NCBI GenBank assembly: GCA_027577595.1
Contig: JANBRJ010000120.1
Span: forward strand, 1 to 44,671
Direction: 5' to 3'
Source of the DNA: Coemansia sp. RSA 487
Taxonomy: Eukaryota; Kickxellomycota; Kickxellomycetes; Kickxellales; Kickxellaceae
DNA length: 44,671 bases
Positions 4,598-40,525 of the stretch are shown here, one piece after another (within the stretch, counting starts at the first letter, position 1; every line of letters starts with the position of its first letter). Under the pieces are notes generated by a model that had not been told where the DNA came from, made no database searches, and saw only the letters and a program-made list of their open reading frames with translations. The position numbers and the translations under genes are program-made.

Positions 4598-4884
4598 GCC
4601 AATAATTAACAATAAATGATAATGAAAAGCAGAAAGGACATCAATGAAAAGGCTTGCTTGCTCGATGTGTCAGTAACGCTATATCAGAATCACCGAACGC
4701 GATTGAGGCTTGATCGATTAAGAGTCAATCAACAAAGCATAAAAATTGTCTTTGGTTGGAAAAAAAACTTCTTTACTGTTGGCAAAACGATCTCGCTCTT
4801 TTTTCACTTTCCTTGTTTCTTCTAACCAACTTAGATATTCATTATTTTTAACTCTGCAAACTAGCATACTCTTTAATTTGGATA

Positions 4885-6480: not shown

Positions 6481-6813
6481 GTCAAAAGTATCATATCTTC
6501 TCTTGTATAATGCAGTCTGCTGTATTCTTTGAGCTAGCATGAAATGCAAATTAAATCCATTAGTGTGGGCTGAAATCTCACAAGCTATTGGGCGAAAAAT
6601 ACCCTTTATTTTTCTGCGACTGTTGCAAAGAAAGCACAGGCAAAGGAACAAAACTGAACTGAATTGACTCTTTCCTCTTTCCTTTCTCTTCTTCTCCCCT
6701 TGGCCAACAGTTCTACAACTCCTTACAAGTTTATTATCGTTTATCGTTGTTTTTGACTTTATCATTTAAAGCCTTCTAAGCAATTCTCTGGTGCGTCGTT
6801 TCTACAGCCCGTA
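6481..6813. other. intergenic, 3' of DBP3 and promoter of transporter
   Basis: A 333-bp AT-rich region with pyrimidine-rich tracts near 6661-6705. It presumably holds the helicase terminator and the transporter promoter. No gene or structured RNA is seen. Confidence 0.5.
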
Positions 6814-8127
6814 ATGTCCTCTGAGCAGACGTATCAGCCTCTTCTGGTGGAACAACAGAGGAATAGCAATGAGCTGCGACCGGAATACGGAGCAGTGCAG
6901 CCACACCCTGTGACCGAGACAAACTTAGCTCCTGTCGTGCAGCATGGAGGCTCTATTGAAGCATTCTTCCACATTGTATGCATCACTGCAGGAACTGGAA
7001 TCCTTCAGCTCCCTTACGCACTCAAGGTTGGCGGCTGGGCTGGAGTTCTATACATTATACTTGCTGCTGTGATAGCTGCGTATAGCGGAGATATCCTTAT
7101 AAAATGCCTCTATTGCAAGCAGGGGGTTCGGTTGAAATCCTATCCTGAGGTTGCAGAGGCAGCCTTTGGGCGCCATGGACGAATCATTGTGCGGCTTCTA
7201 AAGGACTTTAATCTTCTTGGTGTGGTTGGGGTATATATTGTGCTTGCTGGCATCAATATCGATTCGCTTCTGGCAGGCACCGCTGGTGGGCAGCTTGGCG
7301 TGCAGTTCTGGAGTGCAGTCTCGGCGTTTCTTGTATGGATCGTGATTGTTTTTGCCCGCGAGGTCCACGATGTGGTTTTACTGAGCGTCTTTGGAACGTT
7401 GACAACCGTGGCAATGGTGGTTATTATCATTTGGCTTGGAATAAGCGACAGAGAGTATGCGCAGTCAAGACCACCGACGCAGCTAGTTAATATTGGGATG
7501 GCTCCCGTATCGCTGGCGTCGATTTGCTTTAGCTTTGGCGGCAATCTGAACTGGCCAGATATCGAGGCGTCAATGAAATCGCCCAAGATGTGGTCCAGGA
7601 CGCTTTCACTTGCTACGGCATTTGTTGCTTTTATCTACCTGTCCGTCGCTGGTATTGGGTATGGTGTTTACGGCGATCTTGTCAAGTCGCCTATTCTCCT
7701 GAGCCTTCCCTCAGGTATGGCAGTCGTTGTAGCCGACGCAATGATCACTGCCCATGTTTTGCTTGCATCTCCAGTCCTGCTGACTGCTGTCTTCATCGAG
7801 GCTGAGAACGACATGAGTATTGGCGTAGCTGCTTCTGGTTCTTTCCGAGCACAGCTCTATTGCAAGCTTTTGCGAAGCCTTTTAATGGGCGTCGTTGCAT
7901 TCTTTGCTGTGTTTGTGTCTGACTTTAGCAAGGTGATCCCAATACTTGGCGCTGTTGCTGCATCGCTGGTCGTTTTTGTCATCCCAGTTGCCTGCTACAT
8001 CCGCCTTTTCAAGACCCAAAGGGCTTTCTCTGTCTGGGAGTACGCTTGGTATGCGCTTATCGTCTGCGTAGGTCTTGTATGCCTTGTAATTGGCACCTCA
8101 CAAGCTATCTCCGACCTGTACAAATAG
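6814..8127 (+). CDS. amino acid transporter, AAAP family (vacuolar AVT-like)
   Basis: A 437-residue polytopic membrane protein of the amino acid/auxin permease family (Aa_trans). A hydrophilic cytosolic N-terminus of about 45 residues leads into the first membrane helix, which carries the family signature ITAGTGILQLPYAL (57-70). By eye about 10-11 hydrophobic segments follow, ending close to the C-terminus. In fungi the family includes the AVT vacuolar transporters that move neutral amino acids by proton exchange, and AVT-type is the likeliest class here. The short N-terminus is unlike yeast Avt1 (about 200 residues before TM1), so the substrate and even the membrane are open. It lies in tandem after DBP3, and downstream is the relic F-box gene on the opposite strand. 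Confidence 0.88.
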   Translation: MSSEQTYQPLLVEQQRNSNELRPEYGAVQPHPVTETNLAPVVQHGGSIEAFFHIVCITAGTGILQLPYALKVGGWAGVLYIILAAVIAAYSGDILIKCLYCKQGVRLKSYPEVAEAAFGRHGRIIVRLLKDFNLLGVVGVYIVLAGINIDSLLAGTAGGQLGVQFWSAVSAFLVWIVIVFAREVHDVVLLSVFGTLTTVAMVVIIIWLGISDREYAQSRPPTQLVNIGMAPVSLASICFSFGGNLNWPDIEASMKSPKMWSRTLSLATAFVAFIYLSVAGIGYGVYGDLVKSPILLSLPSGMAVVVADAMITAHVLLASPVLLTAVFIEAENDMSIGVAASGSFRAQLYCKLLRSLLMGVVAFFAVFVSDFSKVIPILGAVAASLVVFVIPVACYIRLFKTQRAFSVWEYAWYALIVCVGLVCLVIGTSQAISDLYK

Positions 8128-18130: not shown

Positions 18131-18813
18131 GGGTAAAAGTAGTTGTGTTTCAAACGTGCTGCACTGGCGGCATACATTCACAGGAAAGGGTATCCGGGAA
18201 GAGCAAAGAGAACTAGGAAGTCTGACAACACAATAAAAAGAATAGTAGTAAACAAAAGTTGACAAGAAAGGGAGCCTGGGGATCTGTTGGCGTTCAAGAG
18301 AATAGAAAAAGTAAAGACAATGGTTGATTTTGTCATTAAAAGGGAGATTGGGAAAAAAATCTATGACGAAAAAAGCGTCATTTTGTTTCAGTATTCTTGA
18401 CACCAGAGTTGAGGATCCTGCATCCTATCTGGCTGGTAATGTTAAACAGCTGTGAGCACTAAATGGCCATTGATGGTACCACACAATGCACACTGTCTTG
18501 CTGGATCAGTTTGAGCTAAAAGAAAAAAGCCTCATTTTCTGGGAAACGGAAAAGGGGTGAATCCGTATATTGTTTTCTGGCACGCTTGAACAAAAATTTT
18601 TTTTAAGCAGCAGACTTCGAACAGCCGTTTTATTATACAACTTTCTTTGTCTTCTTATCGGTGTTATTTTTATTTGGATTCTATCCCGCGTGTGTTTTTA
18701 GCAACTGTATTCCACGAATTCCAGACAGACACTCAAACAGCATTGCGGCTATTTTGTTTACATTTAATTACCAGCCAACAACAGCAGCAGCAAATAGTCA
18801 CTATATATTTACA
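18131..18813. other. divergent promoter region Smr gene / nucleoporin
   Basis: A 683-bp AT-rich region between two divergent genes. It holds poly-A/T tracts (for example near 18595-18605) and short pyrimidine runs. No ORF beginning with ATG and no RNA gene could be supported. It presumably contains both promoters. Confidence 0.5.
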
Positions 18814-20913
18814 ATGGGCAAACGCATTGCAGAGAAGCAGCTCACGCAGCTGAATCAACACGAGGAGGAAATGGAAGGCAGTAGCGACCACTTTGGCGAG
18901 GGAATCCGTATGGCTGACAAGATGGCACTGTCGCAGAGGGTGATCAAGAAGCCCAAGTCGCGTCTCCGCGGAATAGCTGGCAGCACCGCCACGGGTGCCA
19001 GTGAGCAGCCAAGCAAGCCCAGCGGTGCCTTTTCTGGATTTGCAGGCTTTGGGTCCCCAGTATCAACGGCTTCTACGAACGCCGCCAGCAGCGCAAATGT
19101 GGCTACTACTCCTACCAGCGGAGAGAACACAGGTGGCAGCGACTCGGCATCAAAGGGGATCTTCAAAGGATTCAGCTTTGCTCAGCCTCCTGCAGCAGCT
19201 GCTGCTACTGGTGCTGCTACTGGTGCTGCTACTGGTGCTGCTAAACCCAAGGTTACCTCTGTTCCAGCATTTGGCTCAGCTGGATCATTCGGAAGCAGTA
19301 ATAGCGTAGGAGGCGTAAGCACAGTGTTCAACGCCGGGTCCTTTGGTTCCAATAACGCCACCGCAAAGCAGCCGGCCGCATCCTTTGAAACCCCATTCAG
19401 TAGCAAAGCAACAGCCGCCAACGACGATGCCGGTAGCACTCAGAAAAAGAGCCCCTTTAGCTTTGGCGCTACAAACCCCACGGCCTCAAAACAGCCGGGG
19501 TTGGAGCATTCGCCAATGGATGCGGATTCCAAGCCAGCTACCGGCTTTAGCATGCCTGCGTTCAAGCCGCCCACATTGGGTGCCTCCACATCCGGTTCGT
19601 CCATGTTCAGCGGTACTCAGAAACAATCGTCCTCGTTCAGCACCCCGTTTATGGCGCCAAAACAAGCTGCTGCTGACACTTCGAATGCACTGGCAGCGAC
19701 AGAACCGGAATTGTCTGCGTCAAACGAGGAAGAGTTTTACAGAAACATCCGTGGTCTCAACGTGTCGCTGCAAAAGAAAATAGGCGACGCGGTTTCAGCT
19801 AATGCCTTTGTTGATCTGACGCCCTTGCTTGAGCAGTACGCAAATCACTGGAACTTGATCACAAAGAAACAGCCTGCGGGTAACAGTAGCACCAGCACAG
19901 CACCAAAGTCAGCATTCGACAACAAAGCAAGCACCTCGCTGGGCAGCAAGCCAGCTGTTGCTGCCACCCCATTCACAACACCAAGCACTACAGCTAGTGC
20001 ATCTGCAACATCGACATTCGCCTTTTCGCAGCCAGCCGCAAAAAACAACAAGCCCAAGCCGTTGTCGCCAGCACCTGCGAGTGAAAAAAAATTCACACCC
20101 AGCACTAATGCATTTAGCAGTTCTGCAATGGAAACATCACCAAAACCGCCGATTTCAACGCCATTCAAGTTTGGCGCTACCAACATGTCGGCGGGATCAA
20201 AGTCCAATTTTGCCTTTTCGTTCGGAAAGCCACCGCTTCCACAGCAGCAGTCACCGTCTGCACCAGTCTCAGACGACGCTGCAAAGAAACCGTTTTCGTT
20301 TGGATTCCTGCAAGCAGGGTCGCCGACCAAGACCACTGCTGCTGGTGGTGCGCCGGCAACAAAGCCTGTATTTACATTTGGGTTTGGCAACACGGACAGC
20401 ACCATTGGCGGTGCAGATAAGGTCAATAATCAGGATACAAAGGCCAGTATCAGCGGTGCAGCTGAAGGCGACAAGAATGATGTTGGCATGAACGGTGGCG
20501 ATGATGATGATGATAATGACGAGGAGCCCAGGTCGCCCAAAAAGCCATCGACAGCGGGGGAGGAAGGAGAGACGACCGAGCACCAGGTGCGCGCCAAAGT
20601 GTACATGTGGGACGGCAGAGAAAGCAAGTACAAGGATATGGGTGTTGGGCAGCTTAAAGTCAATACATGGGAAACCACCGACGCCCAAGCCAAACGTGCT
20701 CGCGTACTGTGCCGCCAAGAGGGGTCAAATAAGATCACGTTAAACGCCTCGCTGTTCAAGGAAATGATCGTCGAATACACGGCGGGCAAGAAGGAGCTGG
20801 GATTTCTGGTTATTGTCGATGGTAAGCCCACACGATACTTGATCCGTACTAGTTCGTCCGACTCCACTGCTACATTGCACGAGTGCATAGAAAGGGTCAA
20901 GTTGTCACTCTAG
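18814..20913 (+). CDS. NUP50: nucleoporin of the Nup50/Nup2 type with FG repeats and Ran-binding domain
   Basis: A 699-residue nuclear basket nucleoporin. The N-terminus MGKRIAEKQLTQLN followed by RVIKKPKSR is the importin-alpha binding module of Nup50 (animal MAKRxAxKELT...AIKKAKR). Scattered FG repeats (FGSP, SFGS, SFGA, SFGK, TFGF) lie in a long Ser/Ala/Thr-rich disordered region. A helical Nup50 middle motif is visible at about 359-400 (FYRNIRGLN...DLTPLLEQY). The last ~110 residues form a RanBP1-like domain beginning near HQVRAKVYMW (590). Nup50/Nup2 displaces cargo from importin-alpha at the basket and recycles it with RanGTP. The ATG at 18814 is the first in frame. A 12-bp tandem repeat (about 19200-19242) codes Ala-Thr-Gly-Ala. 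Confidence 0.9.
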   Translation: MGKRIAEKQLTQLNQHEEEMEGSSDHFGEGIRMADKMALSQRVIKKPKSRLRGIAGSTATGASEQPSKPSGAFSGFAGFGSPVSTASTNAASSANVATTPTSGENTGGSDSASKGIFKGFSFAQPPAAAAATGAATGAATGAAKPKVTSVPAFGSAGSFGSSNSVGGVSTVFNAGSFGSNNATAKQPAASFETPFSSKATAANDDAGSTQKKSPFSFGATNPTASKQPGLEHSPMDADSKPATGFSMPAFKPPTLGASTSGSSMFSGTQKQSSSFSTPFMAPKQAAADTSNALAATEPELSASNEEEFYRNIRGLNVSLQKKIGDAVSANAFVDLTPLLEQYANHWNLITKKQPAGNSSTSTAPKSAFDNKASTSLGSKPAVAATPFTTPSTTASASATSTFAFSQPAAKNNKPKPLSPAPASEKKFTPSTNAFSSSAMETSPKPPISTPFKFGATNMSAGSKSNFAFSFGKPPLPQQQSPSAPVSDDAAKKPFSFGFLQAGSPTKTTAAGGAPATKPVFTFGFGNTDSTIGGADKVNNQDTKASISGAAEGDKNDVGMNGGDDDDDNDEEPRSPKKPSTAGEEGETTEHQVRAKVYMWDGRESKYKDMGVGQLKVNTWETTDAQAKRARVLCRQEGSNKITLNASLFKEMIVEYTAGKKELGFLVIVDGKPTRYLIRTSSSDSTATLHECIERVKLSL

Positions 20914-21238
20914 GACTTGTTCTCTGTCTCCCATTTCTAGTATTTTTTATTCATCTCTTCCACCTTCGTGTATACTTCGCCTTTTGCAACTGGGAACTCT
21001 TGGTGGACAGAGATCAGCTAATATTCAATTGTGCTTTCGAGCAAACGTGGGTCTCTTGATCTGGAATACCACAGCGTCAACATCCAAACACCATTATTAT
21101 TTGGGGGCTCCAGAGTGTAATGGGAAGGCTTCTTGAAATTAAACAGTTTAAAAGAGTAAGCAATAGTATAGATATATAGTGAACTGGGGATCCGAATCTT
21201 TTTGGCTTTGTATTTTCTCGTGCCTGGCTTTGACTCGT
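20914..21238. other. convergent intergenic region nucleoporin / LIM gene
   Basis: A 325-bp AT-rich stretch between the stop codons of two converging genes, holding both 3' UTRs. I see no gene or strong hairpin. Confidence 0.5.
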
Positions 21239-24200
21239 CTACTCAAACATTGTCTGCGACTTGAGCGCCCATGGCGGGCGGAAGTTTGCGTTGCGGAACC
21301 GGCGTTCTAGGTTGTCCAGATGGACGTTTGGCGAGAATGCTGCGCCTGCACGATCACGGGGCGACGCAAAGTCGCTACTTCCGTTGATCTGGTCTTGGCT
21401 ATCGGCAAACGGGTCAAACTGTGAGGATGACGACGTGTTTGCGTTGTCCTGACGGCCGATTGCGCCAAAGTTAAGCACTTCAGCTATCGACGGGCCGCAA
21501 GGCGAGAGATAACGGCCTGACAAGTCCTGGCTGCTCGCACGGGAATGCTGTGGCGAACCAGAGATGCTCGCCTGGCTGCCGTTGATCTGTCTCTGTGCTT
21601 CCTGACGCAGGGCGTTAACGACGTTTGAATCGTAATGTGATTCACGGGAGCCAGCAAAAATGCTACGCGACCCGCTGCGCGGTCCCGACGAAGGCGGCGG
21701 AGACCGCGGTGGGCTAGCCGCTCTATTGTAGAAGGGTGTTTGCTGCTGTTTCTGCTGTTGCTGCGATGGCTGTGGTTGTGCCTTGTACTTCGGCTGGCCA
21801 GCAGTCTTTGGCTTGGGTACAGGAAGCGGCCGACGGGTCTCGCTGCTGCTGTTGCTGTTGCTCGTTGCTGTCCCGGTTCGTTGAGGCATGGGCGTCGAGT
21901 GACCATCTGGGGCTAGTCTACTGGCCGGCACAGGAGTTGACCGAGCAAAAGAGCCGTTGTCGATCTGCTCGGCAGCTGCATCCAGGAAGTTGCGCATGGC
22001 CGAGTTCATCCGGCGAGGCGTCCCCGACTCGTGAGGAACAGATGGTGGTGGCAATCTGTCCGAGTCGCCTTGTCCCGAATACATCGGCATGCTAGGCACT
22101 GGCGGAACTGCTGGGACGGTGCTGCCCCCATCAGGCACAAACCGCTCGCGAGAAACACCTGAGCGGCGGCGGTGGTGACGCGAACGCCGGCCCATCGTGC
22201 TCTTCTTGCGCATGAGGATACTGCGACGGCGCAAGAGCTCGTTTCCGTGCTTCTTGCAGTAGATGGCACCTTTGATGCGGATGGCGGCGGTGGAAGGCAC
22301 AACCTGGGAGCACTGGCGACAGCGCATGCATGTCCGGTGGTATCCGTAGCCTTCATGAACAACACGGTCGTTGAGATAAACGACATCGCCGCATCCAGGG
22401 CACAGCGGATGGTCCCAGCCGTTCAGGCTCTTTGTATCGTTGAGTAAAGCTGTAGATGGACGGGAAGCATTGGATCCAGGGCGCTCGATGCTGCTACCAC
22501 TCCTACCGTTGCCGCCACCGACAAGTGTGTTGCCGTCGCTGGTCTTTTGCATGGCAGCTGGAGCTGTAAAGCGCGATTTGACCGATGCAGGACTAGACTC
22601 GGGATCAATGGCGCTTGCGGGGTAGCGCTTTTCCAAAACCTTGGTTTTGACTTTCTTGTCGACCACGCGCTCGGTAATCCATGGTGTTCCAGAAGGAGAC
22701 GTAGCTTGCTCGCGCTCATAATGAGTCTGCCTGTCGACTCCAACATCGCCGTTGCGGCAGATCTGCGACTGGTCGCCCGCAAATGCCTTGACCATCTGGG
22801 CGTCCTTTTGGTCGCTTTTCTCACGCAGCTGCTGCATATGCTGCAAAAAGTCGTCGACCGAGGTAAATGACTCCATGATCGCGCGGTTCATCTGCTCGAA
22901 CTTCTTGTCGGAGATACCAGGGCGCACTGCAACAACCTTTGGGCGTGGCGCCGCAGTGTTTTCCTCACGGGCCTCAAAGTACCTTTTGTAATCCTTTTCA
23001 CAATAGACATGGCCGTCGACGGCACGGAATGTGGAGGATGTGAGCAGACAGTCGCAGGCCTCGCAGCGAAGGCAGCTGGCATGCATGACCTGTGGGCGGA
23101 CCACAATGTCATCCTTCTCCACGCCCTTGCCACAAACGCCGCAGCAGCCAGATTCGCACTTCTTGCTCGGCACATAACTATCCTTGTTGGTGAAAGCAGG
23201 GAGCAGAACGCCGCCGCCGCGCAGAGTTGACTGCGCACGCGTCTCGCCTGCTACGGAGGCAACTTTGCCGCCTCCTACAAGCACAGGGCTCCGTGGGCGA
23301 CTTAGATTGGGATATGAAGCAAGCGAGTCAATGTCCTCCTCCACAACCTTGGGAATGTTATAGGGGAGATTGGTGCTGCCGTTCGTCAGCGTGCTTGAAC
23401 TGCCAAACTCTGAGCCCTGACGAGGGCGGCTGCGGCGGCTCGCGAGTGAACCTGTTTCAAGGTCCAAGCGATCGACAACAGGCTCTTCCTGGTACTGATC
23501 TGCGGGTTCTGGTGTTGCTCTTTGGCCGACAGAATGCGAATGCGGCCGATAACGTGCTGATCCGGGCTGGTCTTGCTGTGAATCTGCGGGACGTTGCTGC
23601 TGCTGCTGCTGCTGCTGTGGCTGCTGTTGTGGCTGTTCCTGCGTGCCACCGTTCTCTTGTTCATGATTCTCTCTCGCACGGTTCTTTATGTGTGCAGGAG
23701 GAGATGGAAATCTCCCAAACACAGGTGTGGGCAAGCGATAAAGCTCAGGTGAGGGCGAGCGGTACCGAGACGTTGGTTCTCCAGCCTGCGTTTGTTGCTG
23801 CTGTTGCTGTTGCGGTGGGCGGTTGTATTGGGAAGCTCTTCCAGGAAAAGGCGCGCTGCGTTCCGATGGCTGGTACGCTGGACCACGCAATGGAGATGAT
23901 GCGTATGTCGGGGGTGCAGCACCACCATCACCACGGCCTGATGCAGCAATGGAGCCGGCGGGAGACCGTGATGAGAATGCAGAGGTACGGGTGGTGCTCC
24001 TAGGCGCAGGCTGTGGCGACGAGTAGCCTTTCGCAGCAGAAGGAATGCCAACCCTAGCGCTAGCAGCAATCGAAGCTGGCCGCTCAGCTGCACGAACTGA
24101 CTTGAGGTCGCTGGCAGAAGTATCCGGGCGTCCGTTGTCGGAGGCTGCAGGCGAGGCAAGGCTGCTCACAGAGGGCACATATCCGGTGGTGCGGCGCATA

Positions 24201-27200
24201 ACACTGGCAAGCTCGTTCTCACTGTCGTTTGCAACAATGGGCGATCCAGGTGTTCCACTGCCTCCACGAAGCACGCCGTCTGGCGAAGCAGCGCTGGCAC
24301 GGCTAGACAAAGCCGAACGATTGATAGCACCGCCTGTGCGTCCCATGACGACATCAAGTTCGGTAAGACTGCGGTTGTTTTCAGCACCGGGGTTTGCTGG
24401 AGTCGTACCTGAGCTGCGGGCTGTAGAACGATAAGCAGACGAGCCAGCCTCTGACGCTTTGGCTGACGAGAGGCGGGGTATCTGCGATCGGGTGTCGCGT
24501 CCGCTGTGACTAGCCGTGCTCTGGCGGCTATGGTAAGAGGCTGTGGAGACCGGCGACTTTGTGCGTTTGAGCCTTAAATCATCGACGCCTCCAGTGCGAC
24601 GTAGAACAGCTGCAAGCTCGGCTGACATGTCTTCAAGCCTCATTGGCAAACTTACAGACGACTCGTTGGCAGCATCGCGCTCAACAGGTACGGCTGCCTC
24701 CTCGTCATCGCCGGCTTCCGTGTTCCCATCGTTGTCGATCTGGTTTGCATCATCAAACTCCTTCCCAGCCATCAGCAGGACATCGGTGCGGATGGTTGAG
24801 TCCGATGCCCACAGCTTGCTTGCGCTGTCGGGGCGCATAGAATCCATCTTCGACACCATTGCGGAAATACGTGTCGACGCGCTAGCCGACCTCGAAGATG
24901 CGCCACCGCCAACAAGGCTGCTGTGCGACGCGACTGATTCGGCCTCATCTGCGACATGCTCACCGGCACAGCACCTGGATGTGCAGCTCTGCTCATGGAA
25001 GTCGTTCTCGATCCCAGCTAGCGCATCAGCTTCGGTCCGTCGCAGAACCTCTTCCAGCTCGCTCACAGCCTTCGCAACCTTGGATTCGGCTGGGTGCTTT
25101 TCCGAGAACGAGTTGGTCCCCTTGCGGCTGCTTTCGGGTCTAGTGCTAGTGGGTTGGGAATCGTCCTTTGCCGGTGTATCGCTGGGCTCGTCACGCACAG
25201 GAGACTCGTAGCGGCGACTGAACGGCGATTTGAAGGCTATGTCTGAGCTGGGCATCTCGCGCACAAAGATGGGCTGCGACTTGAGGATGGTAAACGCATC
25301 ACGCATATTTGGTGGCTTCACTCTGTACTTTTCGTCATCGTCCCAGTACCGTGGATCAAGGTTTTCAGCCCTGTTCTTGGCTCCAGCATTGGCGTTAGCA
25401 CCGGTCCCGTTTTGCTGCTGCTGCTGCTGCTGCTGCTGTCCAGAGCTGGTAGGTCGTGATGGCGGGCGCTGGGAACTGGCATCATCCCGGGACTGCTCCG
25501 ATTCCCCTTCACTAGGCTTATTGGCATCCTCTGCTGCATCGCTAGTTGATTTTTCGTTGCCATCACCATTGTCAGGAGCCAGGTCGGTCTTGTCAACGGG
25601 GTTGACGTTCGGGCTACTGCTGGTAGAGCCCGGATTGCTGCTGTGAACGCTCTCCGCAGGCACAACAGATGCTGCGACACTCATGCGGTCGCTGTAGAGT
25701 GTGTCGTAGTTTTGAGAGACTGGCGATAGCTGGTCCATTGACATGCCGCCGCCAACAAGAAGGCCGTCAGACACAGTGGTCCTCACTCCTTTTGGCACCG
25801 GGCTGACGCTTGTCCGGTCCAGTACATCGCGAAGCTCTGTCTCGCGGATGCTCAGGTAATGCCGTCCCGATGGTGACGAAGACACCGTTTGCTCGTTGTC
25901 TGAAGACGCCGCCTCCGACGCCTGTGCCTTGAGGAGCTCCTCAACGCTTGCGCGCAACTGCTCCTTCACCTGGGTGTCTGTCGTGTTATCAACAAGCAGT
26001 TTCAGTATCTCGCTGGAGCTCATCTCGCTGGAGCCCATAAAACGGTAGCGCCGGCGCAGCTCGTCCAGATACTTGCGCAGCATATGTTCTGGGTAATACT
26101 GCGTAAGCAGGTTCTCCACGCGCTCGCGGTAGTTGACCTTGTCCTTGGACGATCTGCGCGGTGGGAGCGCATACTTGTCCATGGGAAGCGACTGCCCTCG
26201 TGTGCCATCTCGGCCTTTTGTGCGGTGCTCTGGTGGAGCTGCTGGAGGGCCATTAAAGGCAGAAAACACCCCGTTTTCGGCCTCATGGTAGCATCCACCG
26301 CCACCGCGAAGCACCGATAAAGCAGGCGAACTCTTCCCCGTTCCAGCATCCTCTTCGGGGCTAACCGTTGTGGCGCTTGTGGATACAGATGTTCGGCTAG
26401 AGTTCCTGGTAGGCAAGCCCTCCGGGATTCCGCGCCATGTTGTCATTGTCGACTTGTCCTCCATCTTTGTCATCGACTGGCTGCGTGGGCGTGATTCAAA
26501 GAATGAACCTCCGCCGCCGACAAGAACAGGCGATGCGCAGAGCGCCGCAGTCAGGTGCGTTCGGGTCCTTGACTCGCGCAGACATTCCGAGTCGCTCATG
26601 ACCGACGCGTCCTCAAATGCTGGACGGATCTCCATAAAGCTCTGCCCCGCCGACGACAGACGCGATCTGGCGTACTCGCTCATACGGGTGTTGGCACGCG
26701 TGTCTGCAACCCTGCTGTACGATTCGATTGTTCTAAGCCGGCTGGGAGTATCCGCAATACGAGACACCACCGCCCTTGACACAGCTCTGCTATTGCTATC
26801 GCTGCTGCTTTCGGCGCTGCTTCCGTTGGTTCTCCCTGCGCCTCCTCCAGTGATCGTGGTCGGGGGCAATGGCCTAGGCTTCAGTGGCAGAGCTCGGATG
26901 TGAAGCTCAAGGCCGCCGTTTTCGGAGCGCTTGGTGGTGAACTGCGGGTTTCGCGTTTCGCCATTGGCAGTGGGATTCTGCGATTCGCTGTCGAAGGAGT
27001 CGTCCTGCTTCACGACAACGTCACCATCCTCGTTCCCAACAATCTACAAGGCATATGAAGAAGTGCATGCGACATAGAAATAGTCAGCCAGTTGTTGCGC
27101 CAGCATTATTAATTAGTCAGTACACGGGAAGAAGATGCAAAACAGGCAAGGATAATAGTCCAGCCAGGATTCGCACATAAATTGTCCGGAATCGCCAGAC

Positions 27201-28075
27201 ACAATACCAAAAGGACAATCGCCAGAATGCACTATGCCTACAGCTCTCGCACTCTCTCAACAGGACCCTCCTCCAATCGGCCAAGCGGTGAAAGCTGTCA
27301 GGATTCTGCACATCAGGAATATGTTGGACAAACCCCGACCTAGATTTCTTCGGATTGCAGAGGTGGGGTTTGGGCGCGGGTATGCACAACTCGGCCAATG
27401 TCTGCATTTAAACGCATCATATTCAGCTGGTTTGGCTTTGCTGGCACTCCCCTCTCTCTGCTCCAGCAATAAATGATCATATCACAGATGCATGGATGCG
27501 CGGTATAGTGCACCACATCTCAGGTTTGCATGCAAAAGTGAAAACAGGTATCGCCAGAACAAGCTGTTTAAAGTGCAAAGTTGCTATTTGAGCTGTAATG
27601 TGTGGAGTTTCTGAAATTTTAAACGCAAGGGAAAATGCGCGAGTTGAGGATAGCAGGGCGTGTAGAAAACAAGCACAGTGCACTAGAAGAAGACCAATGG
27701 GAGAAGCGGGAAAGGCGAATTGGGATCACCAACAAAAACGGCGCAATGTCCAGTTCTCTCTACAAAGCACAAAGGTGTTGTAGCATGGCTGGAAAGGAAA
27801 GAGATAGGAAAAAAAGTAACCCCTACATGAAATGCTGGCCATGCACAGAAACATGGACAAAGTAAACAACGGTTGCGCTTTGGCAAAAGCAGCACATCCC
27901 AAAAACGATCTGTTGTAGCTCATAGTAAACGTACCTTTACAGACACCTTGGTCGCAGCGCCATTGTCTCTGTCGTCGGCGTAGAGGTCGCCCGTAACATG
28001 GATGTCGTACTTGTACGGCGGGCCGCGCGAGAGCTGCTGTCCGCCATTGCTACTGCTACTACTGGGGGCATCCAT
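21239..28075 (-). CDS. very large paxillin-like protein with two LIM domains and interspersed short repeats
   Basis: Two supported exons: 27935-28075 (47 codons from ATG 28075) and 21239-27043, joined in phase 0 across an 891-nt intron (GTACGT donor, TTGTAG acceptor). They give about 1,981 residues. The large exon has no ATG at its 5' end, so an upstream exon is required. Two Cys/His zinc LIM domains lie at about 1345-1402 and 1595-1651. A helical segment (about 349-422) looks folded and most of the rest is Ser/Pro/Gln-rich and disordered. Two short motifs recur: L[VR]GGG eight times and ELxxV[LM]xRT five times. Architecture resembles paxillin/Pxl1 (disordered N-terminus with short helical motifs, C-terminal LIMs), which act in adhesion or polarity and cytokinesis, but the function here is unknown. 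A further 6-codon exon at 28474-28491 is possible. Confidence 0.75.
23593..23635 (-). repeat. CAG/CTG trinucleotide repeat (poly-Gln)
   Basis: Run of CTG-type triplets on the plus strand, read as CAG (Gln) in the LIM gene, with CAA/CCA interruptions. One of several poly-Gln runs in this protein, with others near 23800, 21740 and 25412-25439. Likely length-variable. Confidence 0.8.
25412..25439 (-). repeat. pure CAG trinucleotide repeat (nine Gln)
   Basis: Uninterrupted CTG triplets on the plus strand encoding about nine Gln in the LIM gene. Its purity suggests recent slippage. Confidence 0.85.
27044..27934 (-). other. long intron of the LIM gene (891 nt)
   Basis: Bounded by GTACGT (donor at 27934) and TTGTAG (acceptor at 27044) on the minus strand, phase 0. 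It is about eight times longer than the two other introns that I can define here (118 and 114 nt). No extra coding exon is convincing inside it. Some short frames exist on both strands without recognisable content. Confidence 0.65.
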
Positions 28076-28491
28076 TGCGGTGGCGGTAACGACGAGCTAC
28101 AGGGTGAAATGATTGCACAGCAATAGACAAAAAGGAGGCAAAAAGAGGGGAGAGATGGCCTGTGTTAGTCGTGTTCCGTCCAATTCGGGAATATTGTGAA
28201 TGGCTTGGCAAAGTAAACACAGAAAATCGTGGATTGCCAGTTATAGAACCTGAATCCAACAGTCTGGCAATCGCGAGCTTCTGACTGTGGTGGTTACCGA
28301 ATCCGGTGCTGCGTTTGCTTTCCCTCCATTTCCAGGGCGGAAAAAATCCAAAAGAGGGGGCGCGCCTCCTGTGTGTTACGCGCGGTCTCGGAGTTCCAAT
28401 AAATATTCTTCTACCAAGCCAAGTCAAGTGCTGATGAGTGTGGTTGGTGTCTGCTGTATCTAGGTAAACTTACATCGCTACAATCGACCAT

Positions 28492-33634: not shown

Positions 33635-36600
33635 ATGGAATGCCTCGACCTTCATTCGCTTATTCTCGAGGAACTTTCAGAGGTCCTGTCGATAACATGC
33701 GCACCACAGACCGCCGACACCGTCTTTGCTGCAGACCCGGCGATACTAAAGATCCTTGCACAGTGTCCACAGCTTCTAGAAAGAAACAGCGTTGGCAATG
33801 ATAAACCACGCCCGTCGAGCCGCATCAGAGTCGTTACTAAGCGCCAAGAAGATGCCATACTTGCGCTGGCGAAGCTGGTCAGTCAGCTGTCTTCGCCTGT
33901 TTCACGGCAGGCGTTGTTGGATCGTGTGCTATCGTACTTGGACGCACTGCCCAGCTACTCGTACAGTTTCTCCTCGTTTGGTGTCGATGGAGTGCCGGGC
34001 GAGCACTGGTTTTTGCAGCGGTTTATCGGCAGGCTTCTGGCGTGTGCTGCGTCGTCGCCAGACCTTGCCGACTCTATTCTAGAGCACGTTTGGGGCCACT
34101 TGAACCAACTTATCGGTATTCTTGAGACAGCCGACGTTGAGCGCATTGTTGTATTTGCTCTCCCTGCGCTGCTAGGATCCATGGAAGCCCTGGAGATGTC
34201 CCCTTTTCGTTATAGAGCCTCAGATGTGGCAATGGCAGATGCGCTCTCTGCTCGGTTGCTGTCAGAAAAGGTCGTCGATAATATACAGCAAGCAATTGGC
34301 GAGTCGTACACCGCCACAATATCCACACGCAGAACAGTATCGCTGTACTCGCAGGGCGGTATCGTACTGTCTGCAAACCATGTGCTGGCTCAGTTTTTGC
34401 TTGTTCTGCGTGCAATTCTCGAATCGCGTCTTGCGATACAGCTTGTAGAAGGCGGCGTTCTGGACGACGAGCTTATACATCGCAAGGATCCGCACCAGCT
34501 GTGGGAGCTGATGTCGCATATCGACACCCATCGCTGTCATTCTGATGGCGATAGATCCGGAATACGGTTGCCTGAAGACGACGGACTCGGCACGGCCTAC
34601 TCCCGCATTCTGTCCTTTAGTCTGCAGACGTATGGCGAGACGCGCAGCTCTCTCTTGCTTAGCCCAAAGATTGCTGCCGCCACTGTGTCTGACGCGGATG
34701 GCTGTGACGCTAGTACTGCCTCCAGATCGATACTAGCTACCGGCATGAGCATCATGTATCGCAGCATGTACACGAGCACTCTTGCGTGTATGCTACTTGG
34801 TCGCCTTGACTCGGGTCTTCTGGGCAGCATATTAGAGCACATCCAGGGCACGCATGTCCAGCAGCTGTCGAGCCTGACGGTTGTCTGCTTCCGGGTTCTG
34901 GTCATAGTTTCCGCCTTCTTCCCTTCCAGCAGAGGCGAGATTATCTCTGCTGTCAGCGGCTTTATAACCAGCCCGCCAAATGACCTTGCGCAAGAGCTTG
35001 TGTCCTCTGGCAGGGCCAGCAGAGACGAAGAGAGGCTGTTGCTGCCTGCAGCGGCCGCGCTCCACTCGTGCATGCGGCTGCTGAGTGTTGATAGGCAGAG
35101 TGCGGTCTCTGCTATCCACACGTTGTTTAACGCTCTTTCGGCATACTGCATTTCAGTCTCGGCCAGCGCCGAACCGTCCCAAGCCGCACTCCGCGTCTCA
35201 CGCAACGTCATAGTCGTTCTTTCGCAGCTGGCACTAATGTACAACGACGTGGAAATAACGTCGCTGGTTGTTGGAATGATCTGTTCGCCAAGCGTTGCTC
35301 TCTCGCCTGTGCTGCATTCGATAGCCATCCAGTGCGGAGCCAGAATAGCCACCATCGCCGAGCAGTCTGTGTTTGTCGATATTGTTGCCGCTGCTTTGAA
35401 GCACATCAGATTTGGCGATGCTACGGATTGTCCAAGCAATAGTGACATGTGTGATACGCTTATTAAGCTTGCATGGGGCGTTGCCGAGCAAACAGGCGTC
35501 ATTGAGGAGTATTTTTGCATGACTATGCGGTCCTTTGTTGACTCTAGCGTCGAGAGCCCAGCACCAGCAAAGTTTAAGAAAGGCGCTGTGACTCCGTTGT
35601 CCGTGTTCCTTCCTGTTTTGCAAGCGATAGTGTCGAGCAAAGGATACAGCATTGACAAGGAAGCCACTGCCGAGCAAATCTCGCTATGGAGAAACTTTTG
35701 GTTCCATATGGTTGTTCGTGGATACGTCACAGAAAAGTCATACACGTCTGCGTATGGCAAGATATACTCGACACTAGCCGCCAAATCACCGATACTTGTC
35801 CATCCGTCGTCGGTGAACTATCTGGAGACCGAGATCGAGTATAACTCTGTCTTGCAGCGCGAGTACAGCGATTCTGGGCTTTCGCATCTGCGCCAGTCGC
35901 TGGATCCGATTGTTTCCACACAGAGCCATACGCTTCTTCGCAACATCAGCTTCCCGCATGCGGCGTTCCTGCTGGCCACATACAGCGTGGAAATAGCCCG
36001 TGCTATGTCCGGCAACTGCGTTACGGTGCTACGCTATTTCAGCAACTCGGCTGTCACAAGCTCTACGTTGCTTCCAGCCATTGAGAGTATTGCCGACCTC
36101 GCAATCAGCGCCTACGTTCGCGAAATAACATCAAGAAAGTGGTCCATTGAAGCCTCGCTTGCCGGAAGCAGCAGCCGCGCGCCCAGCGAAAAGAGCCTTC
36201 CAGGGGCCAGCAAATTTAGAGGACATTCGACGCTTGCCCAAAACGGTCCGGTTACCATAGCAAAGACCGCTCGAGATGCTTCGCGCCCAGTGGTTGCGCA
36301 AGTACGTGAGCTGATGGTAGCGTCGTGTCACCACTTGATGCAGGTGAGCAAATGGGCTCAGCACTTTGTCGACAAGATCCTACGGTCGTTTCCTCAGGCG
36401 CTCCTCGACAGGACAGTTATCTGCACGCTATTTGAGCTTGTGCAGCTTGTGTGGAAGAGCTGCAAAGCCGAGCAGGACGACCAGTTTGTGCCTGTCTACC
36501 TGTTTACTTCGCAGTCCCTGGGAATCACTTTGCAGCTACCCGACTCGATCAGCTACCGTAAAACCTTGTTCTCGCAGTTCTCCGAATGCGCCAAGCGCTG

Positions 36601-39600
36601 GGTGGAGCTTGCCGGCAAGGCAGCTCCCATGGAGCTCGAGACGTTGCTCCAGATATACCTGTCGACGCCCTGCGACGACGACCTCAACTACGAGCCGCAC
36701 GTAGGACGAGCCCTTGCTCTGGACATTGGCAGTGCAATCAAGTATGGAATAACGCCCTCGGTTGATGCGAGCTCGACCATTGCGGCTCTGCCTTCGAATT
36801 CATCGTCCTTTACGTATCGTCTCAGCCAGCGCGGCTACATGCGGGGCCATCTTGGCAATGGCGCCGATGTCGCGGCGCTCAAGGAGCTGCTATCGGGCGT
36901 ATATTCTGTTGCAAAAGACGATCCAGGCGCACCTTTGCCAGAAGGCAGGCCGAGCATACGCGAGGTTATGGACCTTATGCACCAGGCGGCACAGCACATT
37001 ATAGCTACGCCAAAGCTGGACAGAGAGCTTGTCCGCCTGCTTGTGTGGGTGCCAATAGCGATGTTTGACGAGAGCCTTATGCGCGCAGCTCGCCATATCT
37101 GGACGATGCTGATTGTTGAGCGTGCAGACGTCGAGGTTCTTATTATGACCGAGCTCACGGTTGCCTGGACGTGGCTGATTCAGCAGTACCAGGGCTTGTT
37201 TTCGCAGCGCTTTGAGCCAAAGGACCCGTTTGCCGCAAAGATGTCGTACACGCCTTCGGACAAGTCGGCCAGATCGCGAGGCTATTCTGTTATCTCTCAT
37301 ACATTAAACCCGCATATGCAGCTGATCGAGTTTATCATGCAGCGCTTTGACTCTGTCAAGCACCTTCCGTACAGCAACTTTAGCGCCATAAATGCCATTC
37401 TGCGCATCCTTCAGGTGACGTTTGACAATGTTGACCGCATCACTACCAACTCCTTGGCGCGTGGGCCGCTGTTTATGCTAGTGCACCTCGGCTTCAAGCT
37501 TCTCAAGCTGGGATTCGAGAGCAGTCCGATATTGGAGACAAAGCTACGCGACGGGCTGTACTGTCTGGCTTTCCGCTGGTTTGCACTGCCGCCACACTGG
37601 AGCTTCAGCGGTAGCAAGATGTCATTAGCTCGGGAGATCCGTATTTTGATCGACACCCGCCACACTGTTAAGAGCGATACACCAGTGCTTCGTATTACAC
37701 CGTCGCTGAGCGGCAGATGGTCAGCCAATGTCACTGGACTTGGTGTCTCGTCTTTATCGCAAGCCTCCAATTCGAGCATTGGGAGCGGCGCTGTTGGTAG
37801 CGGCGCCCAGCCGATGACTGCGCTCAATGGTGGTGGTGGGACATCTTCACAAAAGCAACATAGCCACCATCATCACAGCCACCATCTTCCTCATCTGCAT
37901 CCAAGCCTGCATCTTCGCAGCCTCAATCCGCTCCACAGACACAAGCGCCAGTCGAGTCCGTCGAAATCTCAAAGCGGTCGGCTCGGGACAGTCCAATATT
38001 CAAGCGCAACAAGCGCTACTTCACTTGACGAAACCGCAAACGACCCTGATCGTGACCTTATCCTCAATGTCCCGCGTGAGAAGCTGAAGGAACGTGCTCT
38101 GCACAACCGGTCGCTGTTGCTACTACTTCTGGAGAGCGAGATATGCCGCATGTCCACATGGGCAAACCCTACCAACCAGAAGCTGAGCTATTTCCCAGAC
38201 GTTTCGCGGTTTGCACGCAGCACAGAGATATCGGAGCAAGGATGGCAGAACCTTGTCGATGATGCTTGGGTGGCCAATCCATCGCTGGCTGTGCAGCTAA
38301 CACATCGTTTCTCCCACCCTTCTATCAAGCGCGAGCTTGTTGGCCTTATATGCAGATATCCCGGGGAGCTGGTGAATGACCCCGATGCCCTTCCGCTGCT
38401 TATCGAACGGATGGGTGCCGGAGATTATGCGCAAGGTTCGGTGGCATTTCCGGTAGTCGGATCGGGCTCGGGAAGCACGGCAGAGCGGCACGATAAAGGC
38501 GGATCGAGTGCAACAGCTCTTGTCGGCAGTATCCTGTCTGACGGGGGCTCCAACAACCTTTCCACGCCCTTATCGTTTCGCGAGCAAAAGTTTCTGCTGT
38601 ACTGGGCTGCTGTACCGCCAATTACCTCAACATCGTACTTGTCATCCTCGGTCTCGCGCAACCCGCTTGTGCTGCAGTACACAATGCGTGCGCTGGAGTG
38701 TTTCCCGGTTGATACTACGTTCTTTTACATTCCCCAGCTGGTGCAGGCGCTCCGTTACGACAATTCGGGCTATACAGAGCGCGCGATAATCTCATCCGCA
38801 CAGATTTCGCAGCACTTTGCGCACCAGATCATTTGGAACATGAAAGCAAACATGTTCAAGGACGACGATTCCCAGGTACCAGACTCGCTGAAGCCCGTGC
38901 TTGAACGCATAATCGATGTTATTGTAGGCGGTCTCAGCGGCGATGATCGCACGTACTACCAGAAGGAGTTTGCGTTCTTTGGCGAGGTCACCGGCATATC
39001 TGGAAAACTGAAGCCCTTCATTAAGAAAAGCAAGCCTGAGAAGAAACGCAAGATCGATGAGGAGATGCGAAAGATCAAGGTTGAACCTGGCGTCTATTTG
39101 CCCAGCAACCCCGATGGCTTTGTTGTTGACATCGATTACAACAGTGGTCGTCCATTGCAGAGCCATGCAAAGGCGCCGTTTATGGCCACGTTCATCATTA
39201 GCAAGCCACAGTCGTCGGGTGATGAGGTTCAGGAGCTTCTCAAGGAATCGGACAGGACAGTGACGCCCTCAGGAAGTCTCGATGATAGCGAGGCAGCATC
39301 AGTGCTTGCAAATAATGAAGCATCGGCTGGAGGAAATGCTTCTGGTCCACCTGGAATGCAAGCAGATCCTGGTTCCGACAATGTCGATGCTAAATCTCCA
39401 AACGGTGCGACGGATGCGGATTACTTGGCTGCCAAACTTGCAAAGACAAAGGTAGAAACGCGCCGCACACTCAGCTCTGGGCTAAGCGACGCACCAGATC
39501 TTATTGGAATCATGCAGCACCAGAGCCAGCCACGAAGCGGACGTCCTAGTCGGGAATATTCTCGTGTCTCGAATGCAAATGCCAATGCCACCGAGACATC

Positions 39601-40525
39601 GACACCGCCTTCGTCCTCCTGCAAACGTCGCGAGACACCTGGTGGCGAGGCTGCAGAGGCAAGTACGACAGCTGGATACAGCGAAGATGCCAAAACCAAG
39701 AACCATGCCAGCAACACGAGCGATGAAAAGCGTGTTATTTCGCAGCTCTCGGCAATTTTCAAGGTTGGCGACGACTGTCGCCAGGACGTGTTAGCTCTGC
39801 AGCTGATAGCCGTATTCAAAAACATATTCACTTCATGTGGGCTTGATCTGTATCTATTCCCATATCGCGTTGTTGCAACAGCACCTGGGTGTGGCGTGAT
39901 TGATGTGATCCCAAACTCGATTTCCCGTGACCAGATGGGCCGCGAAAAGGTCAACTCGCTTAGCGACTACTTTGCCACCAAGTACCACGGCGTGGATTCA
40001 ATACAGTACCAACAGGCGCGTAGCAACTTTGTGCAATCACTAGCAGCATACTCGGTTCTGTCCTACTTGCTTCAATTTAAGGACCGCCACAACGGTAACA
40101 TTATGCTGGACGACCAGGGCCACATCGTGCACATCGACTTTGGGTTCATCCTGGACATTGCGCCTGGAGGCATCACGTTTGAGTCTGCACCGTTCAAGCT
40201 GACGACCGAGTACATCCAAGTGATGGGTGGATCTGCTGATGCACAGCCGTACAAGCTGTTTTGCGAGCTGTGCATCAAGGCATTTTTGGCAAGCCGTCCG
40301 TACGCGGAAAAAATTGTTCAGATCGTCTCTCTGATGCTTGAATCGGGACTACCTTGCTTCAAGGGCGAAACCACCCTTGCGAAGCTTCGTGGTCGGTTCC
40401 AGCTGGACAAGAGCGAGCGCGAGGCTGCGCAGTTTATGATGGATCGGATCAACGACTCGTACGAGAACAAGCGCACCGTGTTGTATGACCAGTTCCAAAA
40501 GGCAACTAACGGCATTCCATACTAG
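33635..40525 (+). CDS. STT4: phosphatidylinositol 4-kinase type III alpha (Stt4)
   Basis: A 2,296-residue lipid kinase in one uninterrupted exon, longer than yeast Stt4 (1,900) and human PI4KA (about 2,100). The long N-terminal half is an alpha-solenoid, followed by a PIK helical domain and the C-terminal kinase. Key motifs are FKVGDDCRQDVLALQL (glycine-loop/lysine region, near 2045), DRHNGNIM (catalytic loop from Asp2150) and IDFGF (metal-binding Asp2168). PI4K alpha makes PI4P at the plasma membrane with Efr3 and Ypp1, neither of which is in the window. Two oddities explain the extra length: a His-rich disordered insert at about 1405-1440 and a disordered insert of about 175 residues within the kinase N-lobe (about 1859-2033). 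The ATG at 33635 is the first in frame. Confidence 0.95.
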   Translation: MECLDLHSLILEELSEVLSITCAPQTADTVFAADPAILKILAQCPQLLERNSVGNDKPRPSSRIRVVTKRQEDAILALAKLVSQLSSPVSRQALLDRVLSYLDALPSYSYSFSSFGVDGVPGEHWFLQRFIGRLLACAASSPDLADSILEHVWGHLNQLIGILETADVERIVVFALPALLGSMEALEMSPFRYRASDVAMADALSARLLSEKVVDNIQQAIGESYTATISTRRTVSLYSQGGIVLSANHVLAQFLLVLRAILESRLAIQLVEGGVLDDELIHRKDPHQLWELMSHIDTHRCHSDGDRSGIRLPEDDGLGTAYSRILSFSLQTYGETRSSLLLSPKIAAATVSDADGCDASTASRSILATGMSIMYRSMYTSTLACMLLGRLDSGLLGSILEHIQGTHVQQLSSLTVVCFRVLVIVSAFFPSSRGEIISAVSGFITSPPNDLAQELVSSGRASRDEERLLLPAAAALHSCMRLLSVDRQSAVSAIHTLFNALSAYCISVSASAEPSQAALRVSRNVIVVLSQLALMYNDVEITSLVVGMICSPSVALSPVLHSIAIQCGARIATIAEQSVFVDIVAAALKHIRFGDATDCPSNSDMCDTLIKLAWGVAEQTGVIEEYFCMTMRSFVDSSVESPAPAKFKKGAVTPLSVFLPVLQAIVSSKGYSIDKEATAEQISLWRNFWFHMVVRGYVTEKSYTSAYGKIYSTLAAKSPILVHPSSVNYLETEIEYNSVLQREYSDSGLSHLRQSLDPIVSTQSHTLLRNISFPHAAFLLATYSVEIARAMSGNCVTVLRYFSNSAVTSSTLLPAIESIADLAISAYVREITSRKWSIEASLAGSSSRAPSEKSLPGASKFRGHSTLAQNGPVTIAKTARDASRPVVAQVRELMVASCHHLMQVSKWAQHFVDKILRSFPQALLDRTVICTLFELVQLVWKSCKAEQDDQFVPVYLFTSQSLGITLQLPDSISYRKTLFSQFSECAKRWVELAGKAAPMELETLLQIYLSTPCDDDLNYEPHVGRALALDIGSAIKYGITPSVDASSTIAALPSNSSSFTYRLSQRGYMRGHLGNGADVAALKELLSGVYSVAKDDPGAPLPEGRPSIREVMDLMHQAAQHIIATPKLDRELVRLLVWVPIAMFDESLMRAARHIWTMLIVERADVEVLIMTELTVAWTWLIQQYQGLFSQRFEPKDPFAAKMSYTPSDKSARSRGYSVISHTLNPHMQLIEFIMQRFDSVKHLPYSNFSAINAILRILQVTFDNVDRITTNSLARGPLFMLVHLGFKLLKLGFESSPILETKLRDGLYCLAFRWFALPPHWSFSGSKMSLAREIRILIDTRHTVKSDTPVLRITPSLSGRWSANVTGLGVSSLSQASNSSIGSGAVGSGAQPMTALNGGGGTSSQKQHSHHHHSHHLPHLHPSLHLRSLNPLHRHKRQSSPSKSQSGRLGTVQYSSATSATSLDETANDPDRDLILNVPREKLKERALHNRSLLLLLLESEICRMSTWANPTNQKLSYFPDVSRFARSTEISEQGWQNLVDDAWVANPSLAVQLTHRFSHPSIKRELVGLICRYPGELVNDPDALPLLIERMGAGDYAQGSVAFPVVGSGSGSTAERHDKGGSSATALVGSILSDGGSNNLSTPLSFREQKFLLYWAAVPPITSTSYLSSSVSRNPLVLQYTMRALECFPVDTTFFYIPQLVQALRYDNSGYTERAIISSAQISQHFAHQIIWNMKANMFKDDDSQVPDSLKPVLERIIDVIVGGLSGDDRTYYQKEFAFFGEVTGISGKLKPFIKKSKPEKKRKIDEEMRKIKVEPGVYLPSNPDGFVVDIDYNSGRPLQSHAKAPFMATFIISKPQSSGDEVQELLKESDRTVTPSGSLDDSEAASVLANNEASAGGNASGPPGMQADPGSDNVDAKSPNGATDADYLAAKLAKTKVETRRTLSSGLSDAPDLIGIMQHQSQPRSGRPSREYSRVSNANANATETSTPPSSSCKRRETPGGEAAEASTTAGYSEDAKTKNHASNTSDEKRVISQLSAIFKVGDDCRQDVLALQLIAVFKNIFTSCGLDLYLFPYRVVATAPGCGVIDVIPNSISRDQMGREKVNSLSDYFATKYHGVDSIQYQQARSNFVQSLAAYSVLSYLLQFKDRHNGNIMLDDQGHIVHIDFGFILDIAPGGITFESAPFKLTTEYIQVMGGSADAQPYKLFCELCIKAFLASRPYAEKIVQIVSLMLESGLPCFKGETTLAKLRGRFQLDKSEREAAQFMMDRINDSYENKRTVLYDQFQKATNGIPY

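Follow-up and report, generated by a model that had tools for sequence, protein, structure and literature searches.

Two families of recurrent short motifs in a long LIM domain protein of Coemansia sp. RSA 487, a candidate multivalent scaffold

The contig JANBRJ010000120.1 of the fungus Coemansia sp. RSA 487 (GenBank assembly GCA_027577595.1), analysed here in its entire length of 44,671 nucleotides (hereinafter, the window), contains on the minus strand (positions 21239-28075) a gene for a long protein with two LIM domains, denoted below the LIM protein, in which two short motifs recur far more often than expected by chance. One of these, ELxxV[LM]xRT (E motif), is present in five copies and the other, L[VR]GG[GS] (G motif), in eight. 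Judging from the arrangement and sequence of the motifs, the most likely role of the LIM protein is that of a multivalent scaffold that engages ligands of two types. In its more specific form, which we consider on balance probable, this would be a long, mostly disordered LIM scaffold with arrays of E motifs acting as docking helices, G motifs engaging a second partner and the LIM domains providing the anchor. A reading of the same general kind, with two ligand types, had been put forward in the original prediction, made on the window alone; it is reasonable and unproven.

Recurrence of the E and G motifs

The LIM protein contains exactly five E motifs and eight G motifs, all in one frame, so that each of the 13 copies listed in the original prediction was recovered, at most 16 nucleotides from where it had placed them. 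The E motifs are ELRDVLDRT (minus strand, as are all features of this gene; 25811-25837, residue 450), ELEEVLRRT (25034-25060, residue 709), ELAAVLRRT (24593-24619, residue 856), ELDVVMGRT (24335-24361, residue 942) and ELASVMRRT (24188-24214, residue 991), referred to below as E motifs 1 to 5. The G motifs, in the same order along the protein, are LVGGG (26510-26524, residue 221), LRGGG (26297-26311, residue 292), LVGGG (25745-25759, residue 476), LVGGG (24902-24916, residue 757), LRGGS (24257-24271, residue 972), LVGGG (23267-23281, residue 1302), LRGGG (23210-23224, residue 1321) and LVGGG (22511-22525, residue 1554). Every L.GG sequence of the protein fits the G motif (8/8), and 12 of the 13 copies precede the pair of LIM domains, the exception being the last G motif, which is located between them. 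The spacing of the E motifs contracts in a nearly constant proportion (gaps of 259, 147, 86 and 49 residues, with ratios of 0.57, 0.59 and 0.57); such a series, or its reverse, appears in about 6.5e-5 of 200,000 random placements, in a test that was conceived post hoc.

The recurrence of both motifs is genuine and far above chance. Scrambling of the sequence, which had been named as a potential refutation of the original prediction, never produced more than one E motif and two G motifs, whether the whole protein was shuffled (20,000 times; on average, 0.00015 E and 0.017 G motifs per shuffle) or the shuffling was confined to blocks of 50 residues (20,000 times; 0.0002 and 0.027). An unprompted search for gapped patterns of five residues (span of at most 9, at least three different residues, at least three copies) returned EL..V..RT (16.0) and LVGGG (15.3) as the top two patterns of the LIM protein, compared to 11.8 for the best (R..S.S.SP) and 8.9 for the next among 71 background frames of at least 300 residues. 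The latter are stop-to-stop frames, not all of which are genes, and comprise a convenience sample, with many taken from loci chosen by a glycine-rich pattern; frames of the LIM protein gene were dropped, as was any frame that had 20 residues in common with a longer one. The two families might not be wholly independent of each other: when the protein is ranked against a profile of the E motif, three LRGG copies are among the next five matches after the five true copies, at 3.4-5.5 bits compared to 30-35 bits for the true copies.

The copies appear as exact islands in unlike surroundings. The LIM protein has no E site that departs from the pattern at one or at two positions (chance expectation, 0.009 and 0.40, respectively), nor any G site with a single mismatch (0.65 expected), and more distant variants are not raised either, with 3 E sites with three mismatches vs 7.5 expected and 13 G sites with two mismatches vs 14.3. 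The likeness between the 25-residue flanks on each side of different copies is 0.086 for the E motif, vs 0.072 for random places, and 0.076 vs 0.071 for the G motif, values attained by fractions of 0.17 and 0.29 of the random sets, respectively; the 60-base DNA flanks are likewise at the random level (reached by 0.22 and 0.61 of random sets). Only the residue immediately preceding the G motif is slightly raised, with an identity of 0.25. Thus, in both protein and DNA, the flanks resemble each other no more than randomly chosen places do, as the original prediction had it, and the exact islands in unlike flanks conform to the pattern expected for selected short linear motifs. Because near-copies are not in excess and the flanks are unlike, whereas partial copies would be expected of old repeats evolving neutrally, selection probably acts on the motifs themselves, which also had been proposed. 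The generic signature of a short linear motif array, that is, recurrence above chance and islands in unlike disordered flanks, is accordingly present in this protein.

At the level of the 17.8-Mb genome, the E pattern, written for all codons, appears at 9 places, vs 16 for its mirror control, in a scan that skips simple repeats and is blind to motifs split by introns. Five of these places are in the LIM protein gene and three do not encode the motif on reading; the ninth (contig C43) encodes ELARVIERT within an apparent protein kinase domain recognised by eye. No gene other than that of the LIM protein was found to contain ELxxV[LM]xRT, and as bare DNA the E pattern is not genome-enriched but is concentrated in the LIM protein gene. 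The G patterns, limited to CTN leucine and CGN arginine codons and thus omitting TTR leucine and AGR arginine, are comparably unremarkable as DNA: LVGGG (CTN leucine) has 51 places vs 52 for the mirror, and LRGG[GS] (CTN and CGN codons) has 61 vs 99, one of the latter places being antisense to the LIM protein gene. The G motif is clustered in the LIM protein gene alone, the nearest other pairs being 7.1 kb and 3.1 kb apart, and the broader L-x-GGG pattern is not enriched, at 439 places, the first 100 of which were listed, vs 558 for the mirror. A protein search of the genome with the 1,924-residue frame of the gene (E-value up to 0.001) returned only the gene itself; the reach of this search is limited, given that other known LIM genes were also unlisted. 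Among viral contigs, 600 pattern matches yielded no confirmed relatives. A literature search found nothing linking the LIM domain with Kickxellomycotina, and publications mentioning LVGGG or LRGGG were, from their listed entries, judged unrelated. Altogether, the E and G motif classes could not be matched to any named family in the searches made.

The E motif as a candidate docking helix

With positions counted from the leucine (L0), a helical E motif would have the residues L0, V+3, [LM]+4 and T+7 on the same face. In agreement with the amphipathic character ascribed to the motif in the original prediction, the hydrophobic moment of four of the five copies exceeds the 94th percentile for the protein, and that of one is in the middle of the distribution (97th, 99th, 95th, 53rd and 96th percentiles for E motifs 1 to 5). 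The residues preceding the glutamate are T, S, A, T and N, four of the five being good helix N-caps, and a glycine follows within two residues after the motif in three of the five copies; the preceding N-cap residue and the trailing glycine fit a short capped helix. A single-sequence AlphaFold2 model of residues 325-480 places a helix over E motif 1 (H124-133 of the model) and four helices before it, which, at a mean predicted local distance difference test (pLDDT) score of 51, is suggestive only.

The four preceding helices of this low-confidence model form a predicted segment within the disordered part (25922-26128, residues 353-421), located directly before E motif 1, for which Pfam yielded no match past the cut-off and two weak ones (E-values 0.046 and 0.93). 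The E helices might dock on this segment or on each other, in which case the array would drive condensation of the protein rather than recruitment of foreign ligands. The segment does adjoin E motif 1, and the presence of the motif in no other gene makes a dedicated or internal partner plausible; however, a mean pLDDT of 51 is too low to show docking, and, because the motif could be bound by a protein that itself lacks it, failure to find it elsewhere carries little weight. We regard such self-association as rather unlikely.

Among the known motifs, a close parallel to the proposed docking helix is provided by the LD motifs of paxillin, to which the original prediction had compared the E motif, and for which PMC7703752 gives the consensus LDxLLxxL. 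Both are short amphipathic helices (predicted, in the case of the E motif), located in an N-terminal disordered region before the LIM domains and present in four or five copies per protein, with the same hydrophobic spacing of 0, +3 and +4. Leucine is present at 0 in all five E copies and +3/+4 are hydrophobic in all five as well (V+3, never leucine, and leucine or methionine at +4). However, the position +1 is occupied by R, E, A, D and A, that is, aspartate in one copy and D or E in two, and +7 is threonine instead of leucine in all five. Thus, the E motif is distinguished by T+7, by the lack of D+1 in four of the five copies, by V+3 and by the fixed R+6, and the LIM protein contains no matches to either LDxLLxxL or the relaxed pattern [LMV][DE]x[LMIV][LMIV]xx[LMIVF]. 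The part of the comparison that stands is the LD-like hydrophobic spacing, and by analogy the E motif, although not an LD motif, may dock as LD-type helices do.

Other helical motifs were compared as well. The ubiquitin-interacting motif (UIM; PF02809) is a single helix with a glutamate before a large hydrophobic residue, a small residue at +3, an aliphatic one at +4 and a hydroxyl residue at +7, a spacing that it shares with the E motif; the latter, however, has valine for the invariant alanine and threonine for serine, and is not preceded by an acidic run. The five E motifs, submitted as 54-residue segments, matched no Pfam family, including UIM, at E-values up to 10, in a search where the HMMER filters drop most weak matches; this result is in line with the earlier statement that the motif corresponds to no named one. 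The SFM (Lifeact/ITPKA), described in PMC13364712 as a short linear F-actin-binding motif VxxLxxxFE, is similar to the E motif in being a short helical motif of disordered cytoskeletal proteins but differs from it in both spacing and residues, and no matches to [VIL]xxLxxxFE are present in the LIM protein. A profile of the five E copies yielded 11 PDB matches (E-values 0.14-5.6) to calmodulins and unrelated chains, the best seven of which consist of five calmodulin chains (0.14-0.75, not significant) and two of an unrelated enzyme. The calmodulin helix SSELATVMR (PDB 2lhh and others) fits the helical first half of the motif but the match ends before the invariant RT, and no EF-hand loop was detected before the copies by eye. 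Several other motifs did not seem suitable candidates, namely WH2, MIM1, MIU, NR box, Prk1 sites, PP1/PP2A docking, 14-3-3 and ubiquitin-tail LxGG cleavage.

The invariance of R+6 and T+7 in all five copies could also mean that the threonine is the target of a kinase, the motif being a substrate site and not a docking helix. Basophilic kinase patterns require arginine at -3 or -2 from the phosphorylated residue, whereas here the only invariant arginine is at -1, and the Prk1 pattern, LxxQxTG, does not seem to fit; furthermore, L0 and V+3 would be left unexplained. This makes a substrate site improbable, and the docking helix is retained as the preferred interpretation of the E motif.

LIM domains and the paxillin-like gene of the same genome

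LIM domain 1 (22991-23143, residues 1348-1398; PF00412) and LIM domain 2 (22247-22402, residues 1595-1646; also a Pfam LIM match) are separated by 196 residues and followed by a C-terminal tail of 335 residues; in each, all eight positions of the zinc-ligand pattern are filled. In a PDB search with the 1,924-residue frame, LIM domain 1 is nearest to EPLIN (2d8y; 2e-5), with LMO4 also among its matches, and LIM domain 2 is nearest to CRP1 (2.5e-9), with CRP2 also matched. Paxillin, leupaxin and Hic-5 are absent among the 14 PDB matches of this frame, which include CRP1, CRP2, EPLIN, LMO4 and others.

The Pfam search of the genome yielded 16 matches to LIM, spread over seven contigs and treated as belonging to seven genes. 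The LIM domains of the gene on contig C63 have paxillin as the best PDB match (E-value 3.7e-13), followed by Lhx4/ISL-2 (6.3e-9). This gene (frame 4047-6992, minus strand, of the segment C63:12000-20500) contains one exact LDxLLxxL, at residue 716, which precedes the CxxC at 800 that starts the C-terminal LIM-like region by 84 residues and the best of the Pfam LIM matches, at 851, by 135; a further CxxC is found at 106. An exact LDxLLxxL appeared in only 8 of 20,000 shuffles of residues 101-982 of this protein. The loose pattern [ED][LIVM]xx[VIL][LMIV]x[RK][ST], derived from the E motif, matches the LIM protein alone among the seven LIM genes (eight frames).

These data bear on the possibility that the E motif is a true LD motif and the LIM protein the paxillin of this fungus. 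Such an assignment would be compatible with five helix-like motifs ahead of the LIM domains, as in animal paxillin, with the common 0, +3, +4 spacing and with the L0D+1 of ELDVVMGRT. However, T replaces L+7 in all five copies, D+1 is missing in four, and neither the strict nor the relaxed LD pattern is matched; moreover, a paxillin would be expected to have paxillin-like C-terminal LIM domains, four in animals, whereas the LIM protein has two, nearest to CRP1 and EPLIN, and it is the C63 gene that combines paxillin-like LIM domains with an exact LDxLLxxL. Because its LIM domains are nearest to EPLIN and CRP1, and the C63 gene carries the paxillin-like ones, the LIM protein does not appear to be a paxillin but is, by domain similarity, separate from the paxillin-like protein of the same genome; the paxillin assignment is highly improbable. 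The earlier comparison is accordingly supported in part, the paxillin-like protein of this genome being that of the C63 gene with its canonical LDxLLxxL.

Fungal LIM proteins include those known as Pxl1, Lrg1 and Rga-type. Of the other LIM genes here, that on contig C88 encodes LIM, C1 and RhoGAP domains, the Rga type, and that on C16, of the Lrg1 type, has two Pfam LIM matches, to which reading by eye adds a third, LIM-like stretch and one resembling RhoGAP. These types resemble the LIM protein in having LIM domains and long disordered regions but correspond to other genes of this genome, namely the paxillin-like C63 gene, C16 and C88. PMC3914944 names the Pxl1, Lrg1 and Rga-type proteins of fungi. 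The paxillin of an anaerobic fungus is represented, in PMC5042518, by a 5' partial record with four LIM domains, so that its LD region lies outside view. A Pfam search for vinculin, the tail of which is one of the LD-binding domains along with FAT and the parvin CH domain, produced no match in the genome, but no control genome was matched either.

Proposed scaffold model, gene layout and neighbouring genes

In the proposed scaffold, each E motif would, once bound, become a short amphipathic helix with caps, two to three turns long, with L0, V+3, [LM]+4 and T+7 inserted into a hydrophobic groove of the partner in an LD-type manner and with fixed polar contacts contributed by E-1 and R+6. Because T+7 would face the buried side, its phosphorylation could turn binding off. 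The G motif would be recognised by a second partner, either in an extended conformation or as a turn; this is the weaker half of the scaffold model, and the ligand role of the G motif is a guess. The pair of LIM domains would serve as the anchor at a cytoskeletal or polarity site, and the motif arrays would supply avidity and stoichiometry. A more ambitious version, which we advance tentatively and hold to be possible rather than probable, is that E, as a capped docking helix, and G represent two undescribed motif classes, together making up a code for two ligands that is private to this LIM scaffold, itself not a paxillin; the fungus would then have, side by side, a paxillin carrying a single classical LD motif and a scaffold with an independently evolved, LD-like array of five helices and a dedicated receptor.

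Several points weigh against the scaffold. The zero counts of near-copies are a lack of excess, not a deficit, given the low chance expectation, and the identity of the copies at the fixed positions is partly circular because the motif definition selects it; the non-circular part of the island argument consists of the lack of near-copy excess and the unlike flanks. For patterns of four residues, the margin is thin (10.7 for the LIM protein vs 10.2 for the best background frame), with the best pattern by count present in 5 copies, compared to maxima of 3 (20 times) or 4 (10 times) in 30 block shuffles. ELDVVMGRT, at the 53rd percentile, is only weakly amphipathic, both structure models are poor (mean pLDDT of 51 and 44), and the argument for selection comes from one protein of one genome. 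Finally, 11 of the 13 copies, drawn from both families, use CTT for the first leucine of the motif, whereas gene-wide this codon accounts for 28 of 100 leucines (hypergeometric p = 8e-6). Measured against the leucines that precede glycine in 14 further frames of this genome, of which 35% are CTT, p is 3.5e-4. The comparison was picked post hoc, with the codons already seen. This bias, if real, suggests that the copies descend from old duplications and not from repeated convergence, which is compatible with function, but then selection is not the sole cause of their likeness.

In the extreme case, the copies would be undecayed remnants of old internal duplications without any binding role, as the shared CTT codon of both motifs in this post hoc test could indicate. 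Decay, however, predicts partial copies and a flank gradient, whereas near-copies are absent, with the small chance expectations given above, and the DNA flanks are random. The third codon positions of V, T and G vary among the copies, which therefore do not look recent, and none of the four rows produced by Tandem Repeats Finder for 21000-28100 falls at a motif. Accordingly, remnants without function seem to us an unlikely explanation, and the scaffold model is preferred. If the motifs bind as proposed, this protein would provide a fungal LIM helical docking code paralleling, without homology, the LD system of paxillin, and a test case for the origin of motif arrays; the apparent LD-bearing, paxillin-like C63 protein and the rival LD-like array could then be compared within one organism.

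The gene model includes two exons. Exon 1 (27935-28075) encodes 47 residues, is open from the ATG and has a GT donor in phase with exon 2 (21239-27043), which encodes 1,934 residues and the stop codon and contains every motif copy and both LIM domains. The intervening intron (27044-27934; 891 nucleotides, GTACGT...TTGTAG) and the splice are inferred from sequence; the frame is kept across the join, which gives a protein of 1,981 residues, close to the length of about 1,980 given earlier. Because all copies are in exon 2, the motif finding is independent of the intron call. The disorder of the protein was judged from composition (63% disorder-promoting residues in 48-1340) and from the low pLDDT of the two segments folded by prediction, residues 325-480 and the region from LIM domain 1 to LIM domain 2.

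The convergent neighbour of the LIM protein gene (18661-20913) encodes NUP50 and RanBP1 domains, that is, a nucleoporin of the Nup50 type. Elsewhere in the window, a frame of 2,296 residues (33635-40525) contains phosphatidylinositol 4-kinase catalytic, PIK and PI4K N-terminal domains (PF00454, PF00613 and PF19274) and is apparently a phosphatidylinositol 4-kinase encoded in a single long open frame.

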